Shown here in pieces: positions 4,703 to 58,270 of a DNA stretch of 64,000 nt. Made by a program: the position numbers and the translations under genes. Numbering within the stretch: the stretch's first letter is position 1; the number at the start of each line of letters is the position of its first letter. This stretch comes from Aphrocallistes beatrix (Eukaryota; Porifera; Hexactinellida; Sceptrulophora; Aphrocallistidae), in the NCBI GenBank assembly GCA_963281255.1, contig OY725488.1, forward strand, positions 2,920,285 to 2,984,284. Direction: 5' to 3'. The notes below the pieces were generated by a model. It was not told the DNA's origin and did no database searches. It saw nothing but the letters and a program-made list of their open reading frames with translations.

Positions 4703-6049
4703 CAGTCTGTTTCATAATTATTTACAAATATTATACCCAATGCAACTTGAAAACTCAAGTCGATATGTACTCATTCAAGTTTTATTTTGGTTCTATGGCC
4801 CCTTAGTAACAATTAAATAGGATATGGTTTAATAGTTAATCTTTTTGCCTTGAGCAGCTATCACAAGGTCGCACCGCTTACGCATAGATTTTGTGAAGTT
4901 GCCAATGAATTCAGGATCAAAGGTTCCCCACTCTATATCTACATAGTTTTTTACATCTTCAATCGTCTTAGGAGCCCTGTTTAGAATCCTTTTCTTCAGA
5001 ACAGCCCATAAATTCTCTATAGGATTCAAATCAGGGCTGCAGGATGGCCAATCTATACATCTAATGGCGCGTTCCTCTTTGTATGAGACAGAGAGCTTGG
5101 ATTTATGGATACTTGAATTATCCTCCTGGAGTTTCCAACCGTCTGGGTAGAGTAGGTCTGCTGTCTCTGTCAAACATTCATTTATCACATTACAATATGC
5201 GATAGAATTGAAATTCTCTCTAAAAATATGCACAGGAGTAGTTCCTCGAGTAGATATCCCTCCCCAAATATGGATCTTTGGTGAATGTCTCGGAATGTTG
5301 ATGACGGGCTTTTGAGTACCCTTGGTCCACATCTGTACTTTCCCGCCACAAAGCCAAATGGAACACTCATCCGTAAAGAAGACCTTGTTCCAATTGATGA
5401 ACTTATGTTTCTTAGCCCATAAAACTCTCAATGCTTCATGGGAGGGAGTAATATTTGGTCCTTTGATTGCAGTTTTCTTGGAATAGGACATCTCTTTGAT
5501 GCATCTCCTCACCATTGAATGCGACACATCAACGCCTCGTGAAACCTTTAGACTACTCTGCATAGTCCGCAAATAAATTCGGGGATTGTTTTTAATATTT
5601 AGAGAGAGTGAGATCCTGTCTCCTCTGTTGAGGCACCTTTTAGGCCCAGCTCCACCCCTGTGCTCAATGCTTTCCCCCGCTGAAATTCGTTGCTTAACAT
5701 TATAGTCCATCTTCAGGGTGACACCGCACATAGAAGCAATATCCTTCATTGGAAGTTTTGAAGTTTCAATGAGCTTAGCCACGTCTTCTCTACGTTGTTT
5801 CTGCATTATTCGCTGAAAATTAGTTGAATTGCCTTAACTAGCTTGTCAGAATTAACTTCGAGACCAAAAAGAGAGAAAAAAGCCCGCCGGAAGTGAAAAA
5901 ATTAAAAATAAAAAAGTTGAGTATCAAAGAGTTGGAAAGGTATCAATAGAAATCGTTAGGATGAGTGTATAGTTGAGAAAAATTGCATTGAGTAAGTTAT
6001 AGTCATTCAAAATCACCTCAAAAATTGTAAATAATTATGAAACAGACTG
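4703..6049. mobile_element. Tc1 element with both TIRs (1347 bp)
   Basis: Perfect terminal inverted repeats (CAGTCTGTTTCATAATTATT and its complement) sit at both ends and are flanked by a TA duplication at 4701-4702 and 6050-6051. The element carries one intact transposase ORF on the minus strand. A decayed relative lies at 45668-46931. Confidence 0.95.
4829..5806 (-). CDS. Tc1-family transposase, DD34E, apparently intact
   Basis: This 325-residue protein would catalyse cut-and-paste transposition by binding the element's TIRs and cutting at TA. The N-terminal ~110 residues hold helix-turn-helix segments and a GRPR-like stretch (GGAGPKR, 51-57). The catalytic DDE domain follows, with Asp146 (FFTDECS), Asp229 (QEDNSSIH) and Glu264 (NPIENLW). 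The last two are separated by 34 residues, the DD34E signature of Tc1. The ATG at 5806 gives the usual family length, and the ORF lies wholly within the TIRs. There are no internal stops. The glutamine usually found before the second Asp is Glu here, so activity is not assured. Confidence 0.93.
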   Translation of the reverse strand: MQKQRREDVAKLIETSKLPMKDIASMCGVTLKMDYNVKQRISAGESIEHRGGAGPKRCLNRGDRISLSLNIKNNPRIYLRTMQSSLKVSRGVDVSHSMVRRCIKEMSYSKKTAIKGPNITPSHEALRVLWAKKHKFINWNKVFFTDECSIWLCGGKVQMWTKGTQKPVINIPRHSPKIHIWGGISTRGTTPVHIFRENFNSIAYCNVINECLTETADLLYPDGWKLQEDNSSIHKSKLSVSYKEERAIRCIDWPSCSPDLNPIENLWAVLKKRILNRAPKTIEDVKNYVDIEWGTFDPEFIGNFTKSMRKRCDLVIAAQGKKINY

Positions 6050-29231: not shown

Positions 29232-30574
29232 CGAGGGTCACTAGGAAAGTTTTGCGACTCGACTAGAATAATTGTTTGAATCTAAACGAAATTGATTGAA
29301 ATATACAATATTGGATTATAATTGTTCAAAATAACCACCATTGTAAGAAATACACCTATGCATTCTTTCAAACCACTTTTCAAAGCAGGAGGCCCAATCT
29401 TCCAGTTTTAGGCCCTCTAAGCACCCCCTATATGCCGCCACAGCACTCTCTGGACTATCGAAAGTAACTCCACGTATCTCATTTTTCATTCTCGGGAAGA
29501 GGAAAAAGTCGCACGGCGCAAGATCAGGAGAAGACGGAGGGTGTGTGAGGAGCTGTATATCATTATCTGCAAGTGTGTCCAGTGTTCTTGCAGCAGTGTG
29601 TGCGCTTGCATTATCATGATGCCATAAGATCTGTCTTCGGACACGTTTTTTAAACTTGCAGTGCCATTCCTGAGAAACCTTTGGTACGCAAACTTCACAA
29701 TAACATTCTGAGTTGACAATTTTGCTTTCTACTAATGGAATTGTGGTCACATGCCCCCATTTAGCGAAAAAAGTTGCAATCATCTGCTTTCCGGCGCTTT
29801 TCTGGCGTTTCACTTTGGTTGGATTATGCTCCCCAGGAAATCTCCAGACCAATGACTGCTTTTTACTCTCAGGATCATATTGTTAGATCCATGTTTCATC
29901 CCCAGTAACAACATGATCCAGTAATTTCGATTTTCCATTGTCAAATTTCTGGATCATGAACTTGCACCATGAGACACGCCGGTCTTTTTGGTCCTCAGTC
30001 AAGCGATATAGGATCCACCTAGCACACACTTTAGATACTTTCAAGTGCTGATGAAGAATTTCGTTTAGAGTAGGTGGGGAGAGTGATTTAATTTCTTCAA
30101 GAATAAGTTCGTAAGTGATTCTCCGATCCTCCTTTATCAGTTTTTTGACATCACATACGTTGGATTCATTAACCGCTGTTGGAGGACGGCCGCTCCTTCT
30201 ATCGTCGTCTATACTGGCTCTTTCCCACTTAAATTCATTAAACCAGCGATAAACTGTTGCTTTATCAGGTGATAAATCACCAAAAGCAGTAGTAAGCTGG
30301 TCTAGACATTCCTTCGGACCTAAATTTCTGCTGTAATCATAATGGATCATTGCTCGAAAATCTCTTCTTTCAAGTTGCATTTCTTAACAAAATCAAAATA
30401 TACTAATTGTCTCTAGTACGAGTATAAAGATATAAAACTCAAAAACGCGTGAATCGATCAGTTAGAAAATTATACTCTAATCTTCAGATATGTAGAGTAT
30501 TCTATTAGAACTCTAATAATAACAGTGTGGTATGATTTTAATAGTGAGTCGCAAAACTTTCCTAGTGACCCTCG
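29232..30574. mobile_element. Mariner element with TIRs (1343 bp)
   Basis: Inverted ends CGAGGGTCACTAGGAAAGTT lie at both sides, with TA on the right (30575-30576) and TG on the left, which is probably a mutated TA. Contains one mariner transposase gene with a single stop codon. Confidence 0.92.
29316..30380 (-). pseudogene. Mariner transposase, DD34D, one in-frame stop
   Basis: From the ATG at 30380, 165 codons encode the paired helix-turn-helix region (VYRWFNEFKWER, then DDRRSGRPP) and reach the first catalytic Asp in GDETWI. There a TAA (29883-29885) stops translation. The same frame continues directly with QYDPESKKQS and 178 further codons from 29852, containing WHHDNASAHTA (second Asp) and SPDLAPCDFFLF (third Asp, 34 residues on). 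No other stop or shift is present over ~354 codons, so this copy died recently by one point mutation, probably in a Tyr or His codon. Confidence 0.93.
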
Positions 30575-34438: not shown

Positions 34439-34868
34439 TTAAGAACAATGTAAAATGAGTTATTCAAAATGGACGAAGTCATTCACAGGCTTTTATTCGC
34501 ATTTATACTGATGTATTAGGTATATTCGAACCAAATTTTTCATAAAATAGCAAAAGTACAGTGAAAATCCAGAAATTTCCTCGAGGCCCCTAACCCCGAA
34601 TATTTTAAGATAATTGTGAATAATTCATATTCCTAGCACTACGAAGTATAATCCATCTGTTTGGAATGAATAAAGAGCTTTCAAAAAGCATATTAGGAAG
34701 TTAGAGCTTAAGTCTTCGACCTTTAGTTTCCAAGTTAGGATTGTCGAAAAATGCTACGTCATCATATGACAAAAATCTAAAACTTAACATTCCATAGGAT
34801 GCAGTGCAATTATTATCAAAGAATCATATATCTACCCACATAAAAAGTATATTAGGAAGTGAGTACTG
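34439..34868 (+). mobile_element. TTAA-family element C, left fragment
   Basis: Matches the middle of elements A and B, starting at an internal TTAA. It is interrupted by the Ginger element at the GTAC site and continues at 43743. Confidence 0.8.
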
Positions 34869-35395
34869 TTGCATGATATTTTGAGTTTCTTATATTGTCA
34901 GACCATGGATTGTCTATCACCGTGATATTCTGAGAATATACAAGATTAGTGATGAATTGTGCTATAGTCACTTGGTTAGGTTTAATGTTATTTTTGTAGA
35001 AATTTGAGACCGCTTGGTGGTAGTATAATGCAATCTAAAATGTTCCCATTTAATATATGCACATAGTTATTTTAGTTTGTAAAATACTGTTTAGGTGTCT
35101 TAAGAAATACGTACGTATAGCTGTCATTATGATAACCTTTATGCTCAGGCTTTTTACGTTCATATGAATCTTGTGACACAGATGTTGACTGAATTCCCCG
35201 TCATTAGGCTCAGTAAAAAAGAATTGCATGAAAATTTGATGTTGACAACCAGCAGTACGTATAAAGAAAAATACTGATGATTCTTTTCCGTGTTTAGTCC
35301 AGTATAATATTACATAAATAATATTACGAATACTTTGTGTTTGTGTAGACTAGTACAATCCGACGACTACCCACTTTAATGAAGTGATCTATGAC

Positions 35396-35538
35396 CATAG
35401 GCGCCAAACGCGGGGGAGGGGGCTGGGGGGGTTCGAGCGATTCGAAGTTGGCCCATAGACGCAACAAAATTTTTAGGGATGATCCCCCCCTAGAAATCCA
35501 AAATCGCCTATAGATTTCGAAAAGTTCGGCGCTCCTGT
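35396..35538. mobile_element. hAT MITE (143 bp)
   Basis: Same family as 27553-27636: ends CATAGGCGCC and GGCGCTCCTG, with a perfect 8-bp duplication TCTATGAC (35388-35395, 35539-35546). It lies in the 3' region of the Ginger element. Confidence 0.93.
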
Positions 35539-36864
35539 CTATGACAGTGTCTGGGTTGTCAGCAATCTTGCCCGTCACCTCCAGGTTTACATTGATCACT
35601 GATCACTTAGACGAATGTTGCCCATGGCTGCTCGCAACCAAGATTTATAACAATATTGGTATGGACATTTGATTGATTGGTTTAGACGATCTGAGCTTCC
35701 CTAGAATATTGAATTTGAAATTCGGTCCTCCAGTGGTGGCCAGTTAGCGACGCCGCTGACGGCAGTATGCAAAAATCAGATAATATATATTTTAATGCTC
35801 TATATTCAGATATTTGTTCAGTTTTAATCTTGATCACTTAATTTATAACCCCATTATGCTAAATAAATATATAAACAAAATTTGATTTTATTATATTCAC
35901 ATTAGGTAGACAAAATATTGGGTGTTATATGTGTACATACAAAACCTGTAAAGAATGATGAGATTGTATAGATACAAAACTTCTGCATCATGTCAGGATT
36001 TAATAATATCATTTTTAAAATGCCCAGAGTGTGCGATCGTGACAGAGTGGCTCATTTTTGGATGTTAGTATTAGTCCCGCTTGCCCAAAAAAAAGGGATT
36101 TTATCCACTTTTTGGAACATTTGGCGGGACATGACGACCCAATAAAAGTCCGAAAACTAATTTTCTCTACTTGATAATAAATAAATGTTATTTAGTATTG
36201 TGTTTTGAAACCTCTCAGTATCTCGCTCATAAGCAATTATTTTTACTTTGTTGGATTCCATTACACCAACAAATATGTTGGGTATGCAGAAGACAATTAA
36301 TTCTGTGTGATATTGTAATTCTATTTCTTTTCGCAATAGTTTTGATAGTTACGTTTTCGCAACAGTTGCGTATCAGCAAGTTATGATGATTCAATTCTGT
36401 GGTTACGATGCATTTATGAAATCTTAACAGTTATGATTATTTATTTGTCCGAAGTAGTTACGATACGTATTACTCGTTATAATGAGATCAATTTGTAGAC
36501 GGTTTACGTAATGGACTGTTACGATAACTACAGTTTGCATCTTGGGTTTTTATCGAAACTTAGCTTAGCAGAAATTAAATGTAAACTTGACTGGATTGCT
36601 TGGTTTTATCAAATGAAGTTTAAGAAATATTAGTGAATACCCCCTGACAATAATTATGATCATGTCGTGCTAATTTTATAGAGATATCCCTAATGAACAT
36701 TTCATTTATCAAAAGTTTATTTCTGCTAGCTCTTTTCGTTTTAGAGTAATTGGAACAAATGATCAACTCGATTTTCACAAAATACAAACGGACAGAAACT
36801 ACTTGCCATTAGATATCTATTGGGAGTTACTACGCTAAAATAAACTAATTAGCATATTAAAATT

Positions 36865-39800
36865 TTATTTGTCGATAGCTTCTTTACTCTCATTAGAATC
36901 ATCTACATCTGCTATCGGAATGGGGTTTGCGGAACCATTTTCACGGGGATCGTTGGATTCTGTGTCGCTGGATTCCACGTTGAGAATTTTTTCTGACTTT
37001 GCTCCATAAGAATGTGTAGGGCTGTTTATCATTGAAATGACTGGTTCATAATGCTGGCCATAGTTGGTGATGTAAATGTTCGCATTCGGATTGGTACTGC
37101 CTCTCAGTAAACTCCATCTCACTTCATGAGTCAAAGTACCTTTTTGCCAATAGTCGGCATTTGCAACGTAAATGTCTGCATCCAGGATAGCAGAAGCCGC
37201 CATTATTTCAACATCGCTACCCCAAATTCCTTCGCAATAAACTAGATTTTCATTAACGAAATATTCACAAGGAGTTGTACGTTTCGATTTGAAATACCAT
37301 CCTAGTCGAGTTGATCCCTCACTTGCGATAAATCGAGCAATTATCGAGCGAATCTCTAAGTGGCTGTTCTGACTGCCAGTAATGATTTTTGAGAGGCAAC
37401 GAAAAAGGCAATTGCCATCTTGCATAATGTTGTCCACTTCCCATGGTTGATAGTATTTAAGTGGCTGTCCAATGAGATTACCCGGCTGTTTCATTACGGA
37501 GTCAAAGGTTAGACCCAAAATGGCACATTTTCTGCGCTGCCAATCTTCATTAATAATTTGAATTAGTGGGTCTGATGGACTCGGGTTAGGAATGTAAGAT
37601 GAATAGCTGTCAGGAATGGTTTCCCAAAACATTGTGTTTAGGTATTGCATTGCCTAAAACGATAGCAGTACACGTAATAAAAATCTATACTACTACTAGG
37701 CTCAAATATGTTATCATCACTTACCACGGAATACAATACTTTGTGAGTGTATTTGGCTGCAAGCATGTCACCAAACTTAGGATAGAGTTCTGTAGTCCAG
37801 CTCAGTAGTCGTTTCCTGATTTCAGTTTTCTAGAATTAAACGTAATTGATATTGGATTGATTATTTCAGTGGCGGGCATAATGATATAGAAGATATATTG
37901 ATATTCAGCATCAATTTCACACCAAAATTAGGCGGGCTTATTTTGTATTACAATCACTAACGCGGCCCCATAATAGAGTGTTTTGGAAGAGTCGCGGACC
38001 ATCAAATTTAGTCTCGCGGGCCTCAGGTTGCCCACTGCTGGATTATATTGAAAATAAACACAATAATATATAATTTTGAATATGTCAATACCATTTGGTC
38101 TTCTGTGGTGTCTTTAAGAAATGTGAACAGCAATGTATTAGGAACGTATTCGTGATAGCGGTTAAGTTTGTTGTGTAAATCCTCGTGTAATGGCGTCATA
38201 AAAGTGTTGCTTTGCACTTTTTGACGTAAAATAGCCTAGTATGATGATCAAAGTCATTAATATTGATTCAATATGAACGTAAAAGACTGTGATTAGAGAA
38301 TTATAGCACTACTTTTAATTTTAAAATAAACTTGTAATGGGAATTTTATTAACTGCAAATAACATGATGTTATTACGTACGCGTAATAACATCATGTTAT
38401 ACCTTGAAGTCATTCAGTTGTGATAGAATTGTACACATTGAAAATCCGAAAATATTGTGTTGTACTGACTACAAAGGAAAATGAATTAAATCAAATTAAT
38501 CGCGACACCGTTATTTCAAAATTCTTTATGATGCTTACAAATAGAAGTTTCTTGCTCTGGTGAGAATCAACAACGCTTTCCAACTTCCTTTTACGTTGTG
38601 TGCACCGTTCTAGTCCAGCATCACGTTCGTAATAAGGTCGTACAATGTCGATGGGGATTTTATTTTCCTTCCTTACACCAGGTTTGGGATTGGGGATGAA
38701 AGCATGACTCTCAGTTAATCTTGAGACAGTGTACGGTCCTAAATATTTCTTTTGCTTTTTAGTATTTGGCAATTTCTTTAACTTGGGCATGTTTGTGCAC
38801 AAAATTTCATCGCCTTCTTTTATCTCAGGTCTATATCGAATAAAAGTATGATATATAAATTATAATATATAACACAGGCCAACAAAAAAATATTTTTGTC
38901 TCTTGGCTCAGATTGTTGGAGCGTTTTTGGGGTATATCGGGGTTGCTGAATCCAAAAATACTATTAGTTTTGCTGAATTGGCTCTAGTTTTCTAGATATT
39001 ACACAACCTTAAATTTTGAGATAATTTACAAATATATGCGATTTGTAGGTTTATTACAACATTTACATCTATTTGTTCACTCTATTTCCAGCATATTCGA
39101 ACCTTTCATGGATTCAAAGCGCATTAGACGTTGTTGCCTCAATGATCCTGATGTCTTTTGCTATATTTGTGGTGAATATATGACAAAGGAACATCGTTTT
39201 AATGTTATAGATGTCACCAAAAAAGCTTATCAGGCTTACTTTGGTATGAAGTTAGGCGATCAGGATAAGTCATGGAGCCCTCACAAAGTGTGCAAGTATT
39301 GCACAGAAACCCTCCGCTTGTGGACACAAGGAAAAGCCAAATCCATGAAGTTTGGGATACCAATGGTTTGGCGAGAGCCCAAGAACCATCACGATGACTG
39401 TTACTTCTGCATGGTTAACATGTCTGGATGGAACCGAATGAAAAAGAATTCGTGGCAATATCCTGACATAGATTCTGCAAGACGGCCAATTCCACACTGC
39501 AGCGAAATTCAGGTGCCTGTTTTTACATCTTTACCTGATCTAGTTCCTGATACTGCGTTTACTCAGGCTATTGATGAATCGTCGGACAGCACTTACAGCA
39601 GCAATAGCTGTATTGAGTCGTTACAGATAAGTAAAGCGGAGCCTTTCACACAGGGGCAGCTCAACGACTTAGTGAGAGACTTAGGCTTGTCAAAAGATGC
39701 TTCAGAGATCCTGGCTTCCCGTCTCAGTGAACACCATGTTCTCCACAGTGAAGCTATGATAACTTATTACCGACGCAGAGACGAAGAACTTATCCGCTAT

Positions 39801-42800
39801 TTCAGTAAAGAAGGCGATTTCGTGTTTTGTAATAACATCCCAGGACTTCTCTCAGCGATGGGACTGTCCCAATACAATCCGAATGAGTGGCGTTTATTTA
39901 TCGACAGCTCTAAACGGAGTTTAAAGTGTGTGTTGCTGCATAATGGTAACAAGTTTGCCTGTGTTCCGATCGGCCATTCAGTAATCTTGAAAGAGCACTA
40001 CGCAACTGTAAAGATGGTCCTACAAAAGCTGTGTTATGATTAACATAACTGGATCGCGTGTGTGGACTTGAAAATGGTCAACATTCTGTTAGGACAGCAA
40101 AGTGGTTACACTAAATACCCATGCTTTCTTTGTTTGTGGGACAGCAGAGCGGATGAGGTGCACTGGGAAAAGAAGAACTGGCCCGTTCGTCAAGAGCTCG
40201 CCGTGGGGGAAAAGAATATCGTTAACGAGCCACTAGTTAGCCGTGACCGTATCATCCTACCCCCACTACATATCAAGTTGGGACTGATGAAACAATTCGT
40301 AAAGGCATTGAACAAAGATGGTACCTGTTTCAGCTACCTCTGCTCAGTATATCCTGGTCTGAGTAGCGAAAAACTTAAGGCAGGAATTTTTGATGGGCCA
40401 CAAATCAGAAAACTGATAAAAGATGAAGATTTCGCCTCACACATGACTGGGGTAGAGGCTGCCGCGTGGTATTCCTTTGTCGATGTTGTAAAGGGATTTC
40501 TAGGCAACACCAAAGTTGCTAACAACCAGAATCTGGTCGAAGGCATGCTCAAAAACTTCCACAGTCTGGGAACCAGAATGAGCATAAAACTTCATTACCT
40601 CTATAGCCATTTAGAGAGATTCCCTGAAAATCTTGGTGATTTAAGCGAAGAACAGGGCGAGCGATTCCACCAAGACATCAGGACTATGGAGGAACGGTAC
40701 CAAGGACGATGGGACGCTCACATGTTGTCAGATTACTGCTGGAGCCTTATGCGTGATTGCGCCCAGGAACCTCACAAGAGGAAATCGTATAAGAGAACGT
40801 TCGTTCATGATTGATAAGTATTCAGATCATATTATATCTCAAATTATCTGCTTATTACGTACGTTCAATTCTAGTTATAAGGTAATACATACATACTATA
40901 TACTATCAGTGAACACGATTCACGGATACTAAAAAACACATAATTTTACAATATCACAAAAAGTAGAGCCAATTGACCAGAACTAGTGCCATTTTCGAAC
41001 TCAGTGACCCCGATATACCCTAGAAATAGTCTCAACTTATCAGCCAAGAAAATGTTGTTGGCCAGTGTAATTATAGATATCTTAAACAAGCTATTTTTTC
41101 CGTGTGATTTATCTCTAGTACGGTATTCACATTTTGACAAGAAAATAGCCTTTATCATGTACATTTATCTCGCCTAGTGCTGCACTATCGGTGTGTCGAC
41201 CAACATTTTTGTACCATGCTCATAATACGTATTTTAAGTATTAAACAACAAACTGTAATTAATCATTTTTTAATAGAATACCATTACAAACCTTATTTGA
41301 GTAACTTTTTTATCGTACTGTCTCTTCTGTCTAAGTTGCTCTGTCTTAATATTTCCACCAGCAAGTTCACACGTCGTCTTGCGGAAAGTGTCCAAACTAG
41401 CGATGCACTCTTGTTGCGGTTCCGGTGGTAGGGAATACAAGTCTGATTCGCTATCAGGTAGAACAGTATTGTAGAGAGCGAATATTGCTTCCTCCATATC
41501 GACATCCTCTTCTGCTGAGACTGAGACATGGTTAATGAATGGAACAAGTTCTTCATATCTCGAGTCTCTTCCCCACATTAATCGGAATGGCGTATCTCCG
41601 TGGGACCTTTTAATAGTGGAGTTCATGCAGAGTAGAGCTGATTTCAGGAGTTGCGACCAATTGGTATTCCCAGACTCAATCTGCATTTTGTTCAACTTCC
41701 TACATTATAATGTACATGCAATTTCGAACATAAATCACATTCTACCATTTCTCAATTTTATTAAATCCTTGTTAAACGCGAAGTAGACATATGAGGTGAT
41801 ATCATTTGAATTAATAATATTAATTTTGAACTACTGATATCCCACGCTAAATTAAATGCCAGAATGTATCGATTACAATCCTCCATTAACAGGACAATAT
41901 AATCTGAATAGTTTCAAGCACCCTCATCTTAAAAGTAAAAAAAGATAAAAGTCTTACGTTTTAAGGATTTTGTTGTGAGCCTCAACCAATCCGTTTGCCA
42001 TAGGATGATAGGCCCGCGTGCTTCTATTTTGAACAGCCAATTTTTGATGGAAATCCTGAAATGCCTGCAAAATGCAACAATAACCACAGTATGCATTATT
42101 AATGAACATTTACCTATTACGTACCTTACTAGATGTGAACTCCTTTCCTTGATCATGTTGTATTATTTCGGGCAATCCCAGATCAAGATATATGTCCTCC
42201 AACTGTTCAATCACTTCATTGGTCGTCTTGGTTTTCAGCGGTCTTGCAACAACATATTTCGAAAGGTAACATGCTGTAACCAGTATGTGCTTGTAGCCGT
42301 CAGGAGTTTCTGGGAGATCACAAATGAGATCAATCCCGATATGTTTCCAAGGTCTGTTGGGGGGAGGAATCGGTTGCAATTTTCTCTGCGGTTGTGGGGG
42401 TAGAGCAGCAGTTTGTTGACAAGTTTTACACGATTTAACCTATTTTGAAACGAAGCAATTAAGAAATGTATAAATAAATGGTTAACGTTCTATTATGAAG
42501 TATGTAACGTTAAATTAATGTGGAGAGTTATGAGGCGTTTCCTCTTGCGATATATTTAAATATATTTATATTGGTACTCTTAATAAGCCTCTATTAGTTG
42601 GGATTTTGACTATTTCATAGTAAATTGAATAACTCATTATTATCCTTTATCAACTTTAATGAATTAACAGTTAACCTATAAACTGGTAACGTTGTATCAA
42701 ACATCCATACAATGTTATCTATCACTTACATAATTAGCAACATCTGGATTAATTCCGATCCATTTGTATCGTTGCTGTATAGCATTTACGGTGCAGTTTA

Positions 42801-43444
42801 TCCCAGGGTGACCTATTTTGTCATGATATTTAATGAATATCTCCTCAATCTCTTTCCGAGTAGGAACTTCCAGTTTCATTTCTTGACCACCTTGTAAGAT
42901 TTTCTAGGTATAGAACATTAATAATAAACTTTTATTTACCAAGATAACCCATAATTGTTTATATTTATTTGATAAGCCAAAGGTGCATGTGATAAAAATA
43001 GAGGCATGCAATAATTGTTATTTTGAATTCAAAACAACAATCCTATATAGTATCTATACTTTCATATTACATGTAGTTGCTCTTGGTAAGAAAGTTAATG
43101 CGCAAAGATATAATATTCAAATAATAACTTCTTTTCATGGTTGGTACACCTGGCGTAGCAAGTCCGACAAATACCATGTCACATTCTAACAAGATCCAGG
43201 CAAATTGTTAGCACTTTTCAGAACGAATTTCCAATCAAAGAATATTAAAATTTATGAATAACTAAATGAACAAATACAAATATAAAACAGTGTACACTTA
43301 CCCTGTACAGTCGACTCGGTTCTGCATCCGATTGAGTATAATTGTTCGTCTTCCTTTTGAAATTCCATTGGCGTCGAGTATAATTTTCAGTCGATTCTGG
43401 GTAAATACCTCTCCCAAGAAATTCGATGATTTCATGATATTCTT
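36865..43444 (-). CDS. Ginger1 transposase: zinc finger, DDE integrase, GPY module, OTU protease
   Basis: Nine exons join in phase with GT-AG borders: 43302-43444, 42730-42903, 42125-42439, 41958-42064, 41292-41699, 38539-38830, 38092-38235, 37725-37829, 36865-37653. They give about 824 residues without a stop; the first exon with the start Met was not found. In order: a YPES-type N-terminal block; an H2C2 finger (YHDKIGH, CKTC); the integrase core with Asp in GIDLI, Asp in QHDQGKEF and Glu in NGLVEAHN (36 residues later); the GDEIL-to-GPYTV-to-RPYYERD C-terminal module; and an OTU domain with DGNCLFRCL (catalytic Asp/Cys), WGSDVEIMAAS and a late His in QHYEPV. Integrase should insert the element. 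OTU proteases cleave ubiquitin, but their role in transposons is unknown. A TATA-like box lies upstream (about 43545-43560, minus). Confidence 0.9.
37962..38038 (-). mobile_element. hAT end fragment inside a Ginger intron
   Basis: The complement reads CAGCAGTGGGCAACCTGAGG and continues with the sequence seen at the left end of the hAT element at 47378. Only this end is present. Confidence 0.75.
38359..38400. repeat. Perfect 19-bp palindrome with 4-nt loop
   Basis: ATAACATGATGTTATTACG and its exact complement flank TACG. It lies in the Ginger intron between the GPY exon and the next exon. It could form a cruciform or bind a dimeric protein; no function is shown. Confidence 0.8.
38873..41067. 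mobile_element. CACTA/CMC-like transposon nested in a Ginger intron (2195 bp)
   Basis: Ends CACAGGCCAACAA and CACTGGCCAACAA (complement) open imperfect inverted repeats of about 120 bp that share GGGTATATCGGGG and AATTGGCTCTA. TAA flanks both sides (38870-38872, 41068-41070). CACTG-like ends and a 3-bp duplication fit the CACTA branch of the CMC superfamily. It encodes one protein on the plus strand, opposite to the host Ginger gene. Confidence 0.85.
39108..40814 (+). pseudogene. CMC-like transposase broken by one stop
   Basis: From ATG 39108 (MDSKRIRRC) the frame runs to a TAA at 40041-40043 and continues in the same frame (HNWIACVDLK) to a stop at 40812-40814, about 567 codons. The N terminus has Cys pairs (CYICGEY, CKYC, CYFC) like a ZAD or treble-clef finger. 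Candidate catalytic residues are Asp in LFIDSS, Asp in VDLKMVN and Glu in GERFHQD. YPCFLCLWDSR followed by HW fits the CxxC...H insertion reported for CMC-type DDE domains. Relatives are common as uncharacterised proteins in arthropods and molluscs (from memory); they carry Glu where this copy has TAA, so a GAA-to-TAA change is likely. An upstream exon is possible, since TTTCCAG precedes the ATG. Confidence 0.8.
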
Positions 43445-43742
43445 CTGAATTCTTTTAATTCAAAAGGTAGCAGTAAAATATATGCGTATACGTACGTCAA
43501 GATAATTTGTATATTGAAATGACAATTATTATGTACTAGTTGGTATACTGCTTATATATACTTGTATTTCCTATCGTACATTGACACCTTCACCCCCAAG
43601 GTAAAATATATAAACCAACCACAAGTGACTATAGCACAATTCATCACTAATCTTGTATATTCTCAGAATATCACGGTGATAGACAATCCATGGTCTGACA
43701 ATATAAGAAACTCAAAATATCATGCAACAGTACCAACAGTAC

Positions 43743-56924: not shown

Positions 56925-58270
56925 CAGGGTGTCCCATAAGTATTGGCCGGTAGTATAAGTTGCTATAATTTTTTTTAAGCAAATAATATAAGTCAATTTT
57001 ATTTTCCAATGTAATCTCCATCCTTTTCTATAACTAGTTTAACACGATTCGGCATGCTACAAATTAAATTTGCTAAAAAATCTGGAGAGATTGATCTCCA
57101 TGCTTCTATAAGATTTTTTTCCAGGCCCTTTAAAGTATTTGCATCTCCCATTTCGCTGATCTTCTCTTTCATATATGCCCACACGTTTTCAATTGGATTA
57201 AGGTCAGGCGAGTTACCTGGCCATTCCGCTTTACGCCAGAAGTTTGGGAACTTCTTTGAACACCATTCTTGGGTCGAATTGGCAGTGTGAGCTGGTGCAC
57301 CATCCTGCATGAAAAATAACTCGGACATGTTTGGTAGCATTGACCGTTCCAAAATTGAGCCTCTCTTCCGTTTACGTTTGATCGCATCCAAACAAGTTTT
57401 GGCTAATATCGAGTCCCGATAATAAGCTCCATTAACCATCTGCCCTTTCGGTATTAAATGCAATTCCGACACTGCTTGAAACGAAATCATCCCCCACACT
57501 TGAATTTTCGGTGGAAATTTAATACGGAGACATGGCTCAATGTTTCTTGAAGATTTTGACCAAACTCTGTCGTTCTGGCGATTTGGAAGAGAAAATAGTT
57601 CAAAGGAGGATTCGTCGCTCCACAGGACCTTTTTCCATTGCTCGATTGTCCACTTTTCTGTTTTAAGGGCGAATTTTAGTCGATTTTCTTTCATTTTTTC
57701 CGTTAATCGGGGCTTTTTGGGTCTTTTGTAAGATTTTAGGCCAAGAGTACCCTTTAGATAACGGTGTACTGTTGATTTTGAGATGGTTATTCCGCTATTG
57801 GATAGTCTAGTAGCAATTCTTCGCGTTGATTGTCTCCTTTTCCCCACAGATTTCGAAATTACAATTTTAGCAACTCGGCTAATTGTTTTTGGACGACCTT
57901 GTTTGGGTCTACTTTCGAGGCGATTTCCGGCTTTGTGTGCATGCCACCAACGCCTTAGTGATCTTTCACTAACAGATAACCTCTGTGAAACAATTTTCTG
58001 CGATAAACCGCCCTCTAGAAGTCCAATTGCCTTGGAACGAATCGCGATTCCATAATCTTGGACATTCATTATTGATTTGTTCAAGCTAGATAGGCCTATT
58101 AATATTATAGCTTTGTATTATGATAGATTGTAAACTTAAGTGATAGAAATTACTCGCAAGTTATTTACTTCAATAATTGAAAGTAACTTGTCTTATTTCA
58201 CAATGGTTTTGCAATAAAAATTTTACAATTCAAAAATCTGAAGACCGGCCAATACTTATGGGACACCCTG
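56925..58270. mobile_element. Tc1-type DD37E element, complete (1346 bp)
   Basis: TIRs CAGGGTGTCCCATAAGTATT at both ends and TA duplications (56923-56924, 58271-58272). It is the innermost layer of the stack, so it is among the youngest insertions here, and carries an intact transposase. Confidence 0.96.
56999..58084 (-). CDS. DD37E transposase, intact
   Basis: The 361-residue ORF starts at the ATG at 58084 or at MNVQDYG six codons on. Helix-turn-helix regions span about 15-50 and 75-110, with GRPK (63-66) between them. The catalytic residues are Asp157 (LWSDESS), Asp261 (FMQDGAPAHTA) and Glu299 (SPDLNPIENVW). The second Asp and the Glu are 37 residues apart, which assigns it to the DD37E branch of the Tc1/mariner superfamily rather than to Tc1 proper (DD34E). 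It has full family length, no stops, and TIRs close outside both ends. It is a good candidate for an active element. Confidence 0.95.
   Translation of the reverse strand: MNKSIMNVQDYGIAIRSKAIGLLEGGLSQKIVSQRLSVSERSLRRWWHAHKAGNRLESRPKQGRPKTISRVAKIVISKSVGKRRQSTRRIATRLSNSGITISKSTVHRYLKGTLGLKSYKRPKKPRLTEKMKENRLKFALKTEKWTIEQWKKVLWSDESSFELFSLPNRQNDRVWSKSSRNIEPCLRIKFPPKIQVWGMISFQAVSELHLIPKGQMVNGAYYRDSILAKTCLDAIKRKRKRGSILERSMLPNMSELFFMQDGAPAHTANSTQEWCSKKFPNFWRKAEWPGNSPDLNPIENVWAYMKEKISEMGDANTLKGLEKNLIEAWRSISPDFLANLICSMPNRVKLVIEKDGDYIGK

Follow-up and report, generated by a model that had tools for sequence, protein, structure and literature searches.

Fusion of an integrase with an OTU protease domain in a single transposon was published in 2010 for Ginger1 elements, and Table 1 of that paper gives as OTU-bearing Ginger1-1, -2, -3 and -11_HM from Hydra, Ginger1-1_AC from Aplysia, and Ginger1-1 and -2_AP from the aphid (PMC2836005, accessible text). 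The element described here lies in a 64,000-nucleotide stretch of the hexactinellid sponge Aphrocallistes beatrix (contig OY725488.1 of GCA_963281255.1, positions 2,920,285 to 2,984,284; hereafter the window), and its domain combination is therefore no discovery, as an earlier reading of the bare sequence (the original prediction) had noted. Like the published OTU-bearing families, it has TGTNR-type ends, terminal inverted repeats (TIRs) within the 40-270 bp range, a 4-bp duplication and a single spliced transposase with an H2C2 zinc finger, a DDE core, a GPY/F-like motif (recognized by eye) and then a C-terminal OTU domain. It differs from published Ginger1 elements in its GNNC duplication (CCGG or CCGT/ACGG in those elements), its eight introns (0-4, and 1-4 in the OTU families) and its length of 8.9 kb, or about 6.7 kb without a nested element, against 2.6-7.1 kb (PMC2836005, accessible text). 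We read it, with a probability of about 0.75, as a young, probably non-autonomous copy of a Ginger1-type cut-and-paste transposon, the OTU domain of which would, in functional relatives, aid transposition; the copy has lost its start codon and was later invaded by another transposon.

Other systems share parts of this organization. Ginger2/Tdd elements likewise have a Gypsy-type integrase, TGTNR ends, TIRs and 4-5 bp duplications, but Ginger2 targets AT-rich RTATAY sites and lacks GPY/F and YPYY according to the accessible part of PMC2836005, whereas the window element has GNNC targets and a GPY motif, recognized by eye. The integrases of PFV and Ty3 are the best solved-structure relatives of the integrase half, with the DDE residues aligned, although they belong to reverse-transcribing elements and carry no OTU domain. 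PFV also makes 4-bp duplications. On the protease side, OTUD1, OTUD5 and OTUD3 belong to the same fold family and have the DGNC active-site motif (DGAC in OTUD5), but the similarity to them is weak, surrounds the Cys and leaves the His region unaligned, and in the window the OTU domain is fused to an integrase. Helitrons with OTU or VTD deubiquitinase domains (PMC9741609, accessible text) resemble the window element in bringing their own deubiquitinase-type domain, but are rolling-circle Rep-helicase elements and not of the integrase type.

The element spans positions 34867-43729. Its TGTTG termini and its 108-bp TIRs, which show zero mismatches, agree with Ginger1 (TGTNR ends, TIRs of about 40-270 bp), and if the palindromic GTAC on either side is included, 34863-34974 and 43622-43733 are 100% complementary over 112 nt. 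The original prediction was right about the perfect identity of the repeats, which it gave as 106 bp; of its limits, 34869-43738, the left one was within 2 bp and the right one took in an extra 9 bp. When the flanks were joined at the outer GTAC (500 nt), they matched 40 scored genome places at 92-94% identity (from 1286 first-look candidates, 40 of which were scored). In 12/12 fetched copies the host repeat reads without a gap straight across the site; the insertion is therefore real, and the predicted GTAC duplication with resumption of the host repeat at the outer GTAC (43739-43742) was confirmed along with the recent insertion. Empty sites had been expected to carry GTAC; all 12 copies are empty, but they have GAAC at the junction (GAGAACTAAG) where the joined window flanks read GAGTACTAAG. 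Between the right end and the outer GTAC stands a 9-bp unit, GTACCAACA, that is foreign to the element proper and absent from 12/12 empty sites. This right border (43730-43742) reads GTACCAACAGTAC, and the unit may be either a tandem duplication of CAACAGTAC or a 5-nt excision footprint between two GTACs; in the second case, GTAC, five terminal bases and GTAC may have been left by an earlier excision, with the window copy then inserting there. Near the terminus, the window copy has one unit of about 61 bp, whereas five sibling copies (L009, L010, L011, L013 and L016) carry at least one more in tandem; TIR length thus changes as units are gained or lost.

The gene lies on the minus strand. Its nine exons have GT donors and AG acceptors and can be joined in frame, as predicted, to give 824 codons with a terminal TAA as the sole stop. 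The 824-residue product contains, in one frame and each above the curated Pfam cut-off, Integrase_H2C2 (residues 63-115, 1.9e-16), rve (residues 133-231, 4.1e-9) and OTU (PF02338, residues 641-729, 3.3e-7). Its first 479 residues match PFV (foamy virus) integrase (2.4e-24), and the alignment brings all three DDE residues into register. A GPY/F motif, KYLGPYTVSRL, was spotted by eye in exon 6 without a profile, and a YP...F/Y...Y/F pattern, also by eye only, in exon 1 of the window copy and of other families. The prediction of a Ginger1-type element with an integrase joined to OTU was right; TIRs, TGTTG ends, 4-bp duplication, H2C2, DDE integrase and OTU were all found.

The gene belongs to a large set of integrase-OTU genes in this genome (100.5 Mb, 28 contigs), for which the genome-wide hit counts that follow are lower bounds from the scored subset of candidates. 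The OTU exon matched at least 148 places (146 of 493 candidates scored), integrase exon 3 at least 150 (150 of 725 scored) and Pfam OTU at least 149, all above the cut-off (150 of 263 scored). Of 150 integrase exons, 80 are followed within 10 kb by an OTU match on their own strand, 2 are preceded by one and 8 have one on the opposite strand. Ulp1 (PF02902), considered as an alternative C-terminal domain, was found at 9 places in the genome; by eye, each lies more than 10 kb from any of the 150 integrase exons listed. In most of 20 fetched loci of other families, selected for a close integrase and OTU, protein matches break near residues 47-50, 106, 208-212, 246, 382, 481, 528 and 563 as they do in the window copy, which gives no support to the original view that intron richness is peculiar to that copy; in L048, L049 and certain other loci, a single match covers more than one exon and includes intron-derived stops. 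Several of these families have moved recently, since near-identical copies exist (e.g., L034-L037 and L042-L045). OTU matches were also found in long intronless frames of 1041-1970 aa (e.g., C4:961412, C6:4042450, C7:763718, C7:2463656 and C15:4005091), five of which have an identical 1041-aa length and score, which suggests that other transposon classes in the genome also carry OTU domains.

The predicted catalytic motifs of the OTU domain, DGNC and His, were present by motif in 18/18 sequences (siblings and families, not all independent), and the catalytic Cys and His are in 10/10 sequences of a ten-sequence OTU alignment; the first and the second Asp of the DDE core are each found in 17/17 rows covering them. 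The OTU exon matched OTUD1 through DGNC at 1.6e-5 as a single sequence and at 3.5e-8 as a ten-sequence profile, a match on the Cys side only that does not reach the His. By the counting method of Nei and Gojobori, the ratio of nonsynonymous to synonymous substitution (dN/dS) of the OTU exon between families was 0.12, 0.09, 0.11 and 0.11 in 4/8 pairs. In integrase exon 3 it was 0.04 (L038-L041), 0.03 (L034-L047) and 0.07 (L042-L046), the other between-family pairs being saturated. The OTU values show, roughly, constraint on the domain between families. Given that the Cys and His motifs are kept in 18/18 sequences and dN/dS is near 0.1 between families where measurable, the OTU domain is probably a deubiquitinase that works while the element transposes. 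In a functional relative, the transposase would bind the TIRs of about 100 bp, bring the ends together and insert them at GNNC with a stagger of 4 bp, in the manner of retroviral-type integrases. Its C-terminal OTU domain would strip ubiquitin from the transposase itself or, where the element inserts, from chromatin or repair proteins, and would so increase the yield of transposition. We prefer two roles, which the data do not separate, namely that the domain protects its own transposase or that it acts on ubiquitylated proteins where the element inserts; the original prediction had suggested that the domain might control protein stability or host silencing. Bao and colleagues proposed a role for OTU and Ulp1 in transposition, possibly via repair (PMC2836005, accessible text), and protection of transposition proteins has also been suggested (PMC9741609, accessible text).

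Several observations weigh against this interpretation. In 4/8 between-family OTU pairs dS is saturated and in the other 4 it is 1.3-2.7, so a dN/dS of about 0.1 is a rough estimate. Within the window family, OTU dN/dS is 1.34, 1.34, 0.62 and 0.32 on 6-15 changes, values compatible with decay of copies after insertion. Many OTU proteases have Asp or Asn two residues after the catalytic His, a position occupied by Glu in 18/18 sequences. Single-sequence structure prediction of the OTU domain gave a mean predicted local distance difference test (pLDDT) score of 37.2, too low to use for the fold. For 70/150 integrase exons there is no scored OTU downstream within 10 kb, so the domain may not be universal. 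Finally, the loss of the start codon is known from a single assembly, in which a base or assembly error is possible.

Could the OTU domain be a passenger or structural module, kept for folding or dimerization and not for cutting ubiquitin? The Glu in place of the usual residue after His-Tyr would fit such a role, and, as far as the accessible text of PMC9741609 goes, no OTU domain of a transposon had been activity-tested as of 2022. This explanation is nevertheless unlikely: DGNC and His are kept in 18/18 sequences under purifying selection between families, and the recurrence of OTU, Ulp1 and other deubiquitinase domains in unrelated transposons (PMC2836005 and PMC9741609, accessible text) favours catalysis.

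The window copy was originally described as apparently intact and possibly active, with a first exon still to be found. It is well preserved, with 824 open codons, identical TIRs and all nine splice boundaries kept, but it is probably disabled, and its fifth intron holds a second transposon. The 8/8 siblings that keep the region (L009-L016; L017 is without it) read TAA ATG AAT TCA GAA GAA TAT, i.e., MNSEEY, and the window copy reads TAA AAG AAT TCA GAA GAA TAT, with an in-frame TAA directly before the AAG; its coding sequence, unlike that expected of an active autonomous element, is not complete from start to stop. In 17/20 other-family loci (the exceptions being L033, L048 and L049) Met is found at the same position, four codons ahead of a conserved [EKQ][YF], in N-termini such as MNSQEF, MDSAKF, MDGLQY, MDRLEY, MEPKEY, MNSEEY and MDSTEY. 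As siblings and other families start at the position of the AAG, the gene has nine exons and not ten, its start was lost in this copy and an upstream exon is unnecessary. That the window copy is fully active, with translation starting in an upstream exon that was missed or from a codon other than AUG, is accordingly quite improbable. Of the ATGs that lie between the TIR and exon 1, none has a convincing in-phase donor as read by eye; a single one had a GT in the right phase and no stop, and that GT is a weak donor. AAG is a poor start codon. The next in-frame ATG lies in exon 2, at residue 56 of 824 and upstream of the zinc finger, from which the copy could at most make a protein without the YPYY-like region that keeps the zinc finger, the DDE core and the OTU domain; alternatively, the copy could be moved in trans by the enzyme of a relative. 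Neither the loss of the start codon nor the nested transposon nor the 9-bp unit figured in the original prediction.

Near-identical copies, sought with the TIR, were found: the search matched 32 places, and nine other element copies (L009-L017) were fetched, with aligned pieces mostly 91-99% identical to the window copy. Copies 98-99% alike within the window family indicate movement recent enough to leave them. By the alignment used, all nine siblings have at least one coding exon missing, stopped or shifted: a shift and a stop in exon 9 in L009, exons 4-8 absent in L010 and L016, exon 4 absent and stops in L011, exon 2 absent and stops in L012, a 1-bp deletion in exon 6 in L013, and several exons absent in L014, L015 and L017. 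None of the ten copies examined (the window copy and nine siblings) has a complete gene. One more sibling, outside the nine compared, lies near C7:252135-259661. A multi-exon gene with one long open frame might also be a domesticated host gene, and host genes derived from Ginger1, such as GIN-1 or Imagin, are known (PMC2836005 and PMC12863088, accessible text); for the window gene this origin is very improbable, given its identical TIRs and target duplication inside a repeat that is empty elsewhere, its nine siblings dispersed at different places, its lost start codon, and a catalytic DDE that is kept here whereas Imagin is reported to have lost it. An origin as a Gypsy-type long terminal repeat retrotransposon remnant, conceivable because Ginger1 and Gypsy integrases are closely related (PMC2836005, accessible text), is extremely improbable, as the terminal repeats are inverted and not direct, the element is multi-copy with 4-bp duplications and an OTU fused in a spliced gene, and the Pfam scan of three element proteins (some small open reading frames fell outside it) gave no reverse transcriptase match.

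The choice of target sites sets these elements apart from the published ones. Ends were located by terminal motif, with no condition on the flanks, in 30 elements, 7 of which had no recognizable pair; for L047 the outer of two candidate pairs was taken and for the window copy the inner right GTAC was counted. In 22/23 end pairs the same four bases flank the element left and right, the exception being L015 (GGGC and TGGC), and all 22 matching pairs are GNNC: GGCC in 8, GTAC in 3, GAGC, GGAC and GTCC in 2 each, and GACC, GGGC, GTGC, GAAC and GATC in 1 each. Neither CCGG or CCGT/ACGG (0/22) nor an AT-rich core such as that of the Ginger2/Tdd target RTATAY (0/22) was found. Since the published specificity (CCGG 75%, CCGT/ACGG 24%) was drawn from 112 Hydra elements (PMC2836005, accessible text), it may be a lineage trait. 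No report of GNNC targets for Ginger elements was found in the literature searched, most subscription papers being outside its reach.

Moreover, 9/30 elements (L013, L016, L030, L033, L035, L040, L041, L042 and L047), from different Ginger families, are inserted into another repeat at one and the same position, an identical AGGCCT some 20 bp inside its end (CATAGCCTACTRTATATAAGGCCT). Copies of this landing repeat come in pairs of opposite orientation with a spacing of several hundred to about 1100 bp, which makes it an inverted-repeat element in its own right. Its 24-base end has 1141 copies in the genome at 1 mismatch or fewer (control 0), and 34 places join it to a Ginger-like end, TGTTKYRT (2 mismatches or fewer; reversed-pattern control 0), many of which are separate insertions because their outer flanks and terminal sequences differ. 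A tentative idea, which we consider doubtful, is that an integrase-OTU lineage shifted its target from CCGG to GNNC and came to land in the inverted repeats of a second, abundant transposon, one parasite settling on another at a conserved AGGCCT; the OTU domain, retained under selection, would then be a deubiquitinase borne by the transposon and needed for every such insertion.

Closely related integrase exons with no scored OTU downstream (C8:2737081, C2:2983240, C19:2062107, C14:2845648, C9:1179465, C13:1968413 and C1:10780083) possibly represent a Ginger1 family without OTU or with an unrecognized C-terminal domain. A fusion of a MINDY-3/4 deubiquitinase to Ginger1 was considered for an intronless gene (Pfam 2.1e-118) 3 kb downstream of C8:2737081 and rejected; the gene is single-copy (1 match) while the integrase exon has several near relatives, and we take the gene for a neighbouring host gene. 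The transposon nested in intron 5, which it extends to 2461 bp, is flanked by a 3-bp TAA duplication at 38870-38872 and 41068-41070, and L009, L011, L012, L013 and L015 align continuously over 38872|41068 with an overlap of 2-3 bp. By its ends it is presumably CACTA-like. Its inner repeats are 72% complementary across 100 nt, and its protein frame (39036-40814) has an in-frame stop at 40041-40043; the two-zinc-cluster protein gave no match in the Pfam scan. Among 119 matches in the genome, several have longer open frames (598-608 aa), so its relatives are better preserved. The window is rich in DNA transposons, and frames at 4829-5806, 29316-30380 and 56999-58084 (minus) resemble, by eye, Tc1/mariner-type transposases.

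Table 1. Features of the Ginger1-type element and its surroundings (window positions unless a contig is given).
Feature	Position	Strand	Basis
Left target-site duplication, GTAC	34863..34866		Equals outer right GTAC; set against empty host repeat
Left TIR, 108 bp, starts TGTTGCATG	34867..34974	+	100% complementary to 43622-43729
Exon 9, OTU protease and tail of 40-odd residues; stop codon TAA 36865-36867	36865..37653	-	Frame, Pfam, OTU alignment
OTU catalytic motifs in exon 9	DGNC Asp 37417-37419, Cys 37408-37410; His 37051-37053	-	Motif
Exon 8	37725..37829	-	Frame, splice sites
Exon 7	38092..38235	-	Frame, splice sites
Exon 6, GPY/F-like motif KYLGPYTV	38539..38830	-	Frame; motif name from PMC2836005
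Nested unrelated transposon, CAC...GTG ends	38873..41067	+	Absent in siblings L009, L011, L012, L013, L015; ends and open reading frames read
Exon 5	41292..41699	-	Frame, splice sites
Exon 4, catalytic Glu of DDE within GLVEAHNK	41958..42064	-	PFV integrase alignment
Exon 3, remainder of H2C2 and DDE core with both Asp	42125..42439	-	Pfam, PFV integrase alignment
Exon 2, beginning of H2C2 zinc finger; nearest in-frame ATG after the lost start	42730..42903	-	Frame, Pfam
Exon 1, N-terminal YPYY-like region; codon 43452-43454 AAG where 8/8 siblings have start ATG	43302..43454	-	Splice sites, sibling comparison
Right TIR, 108 bp	43622..43729	-	Complementarity to left TIR
Extra 9-bp unit GTACCAACA, between right end and outer GTAC	43730..43738		Absent in 12/12 empty sites
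Outer right GTAC, host repeat resumes here	43739..43742		Comparison with empty host repeats
MINDY-3/4 gene	C8:2739586-2741295 (L050:1287-2996)		Single-copy, intronless, adjoins integrase exon

To the published Ginger1 elements, this genome adds the choice of GNNC targets, a higher intron number and a large integrase-OTU set. The lost start codon of the window copy is a caution: a copy may be dead even though its frame is open and its inverted repeats are perfect. The GNNC duplications show that target choice in the Ginger1-type group is not fixed at CCGG, and the insertions that recur at a single site of another transposon provide a natural series for studying target choice. With its constrained OTU motifs, the integrase-OTU set also makes the question of why transposons carry deubiquitinases testable by comparison of families.

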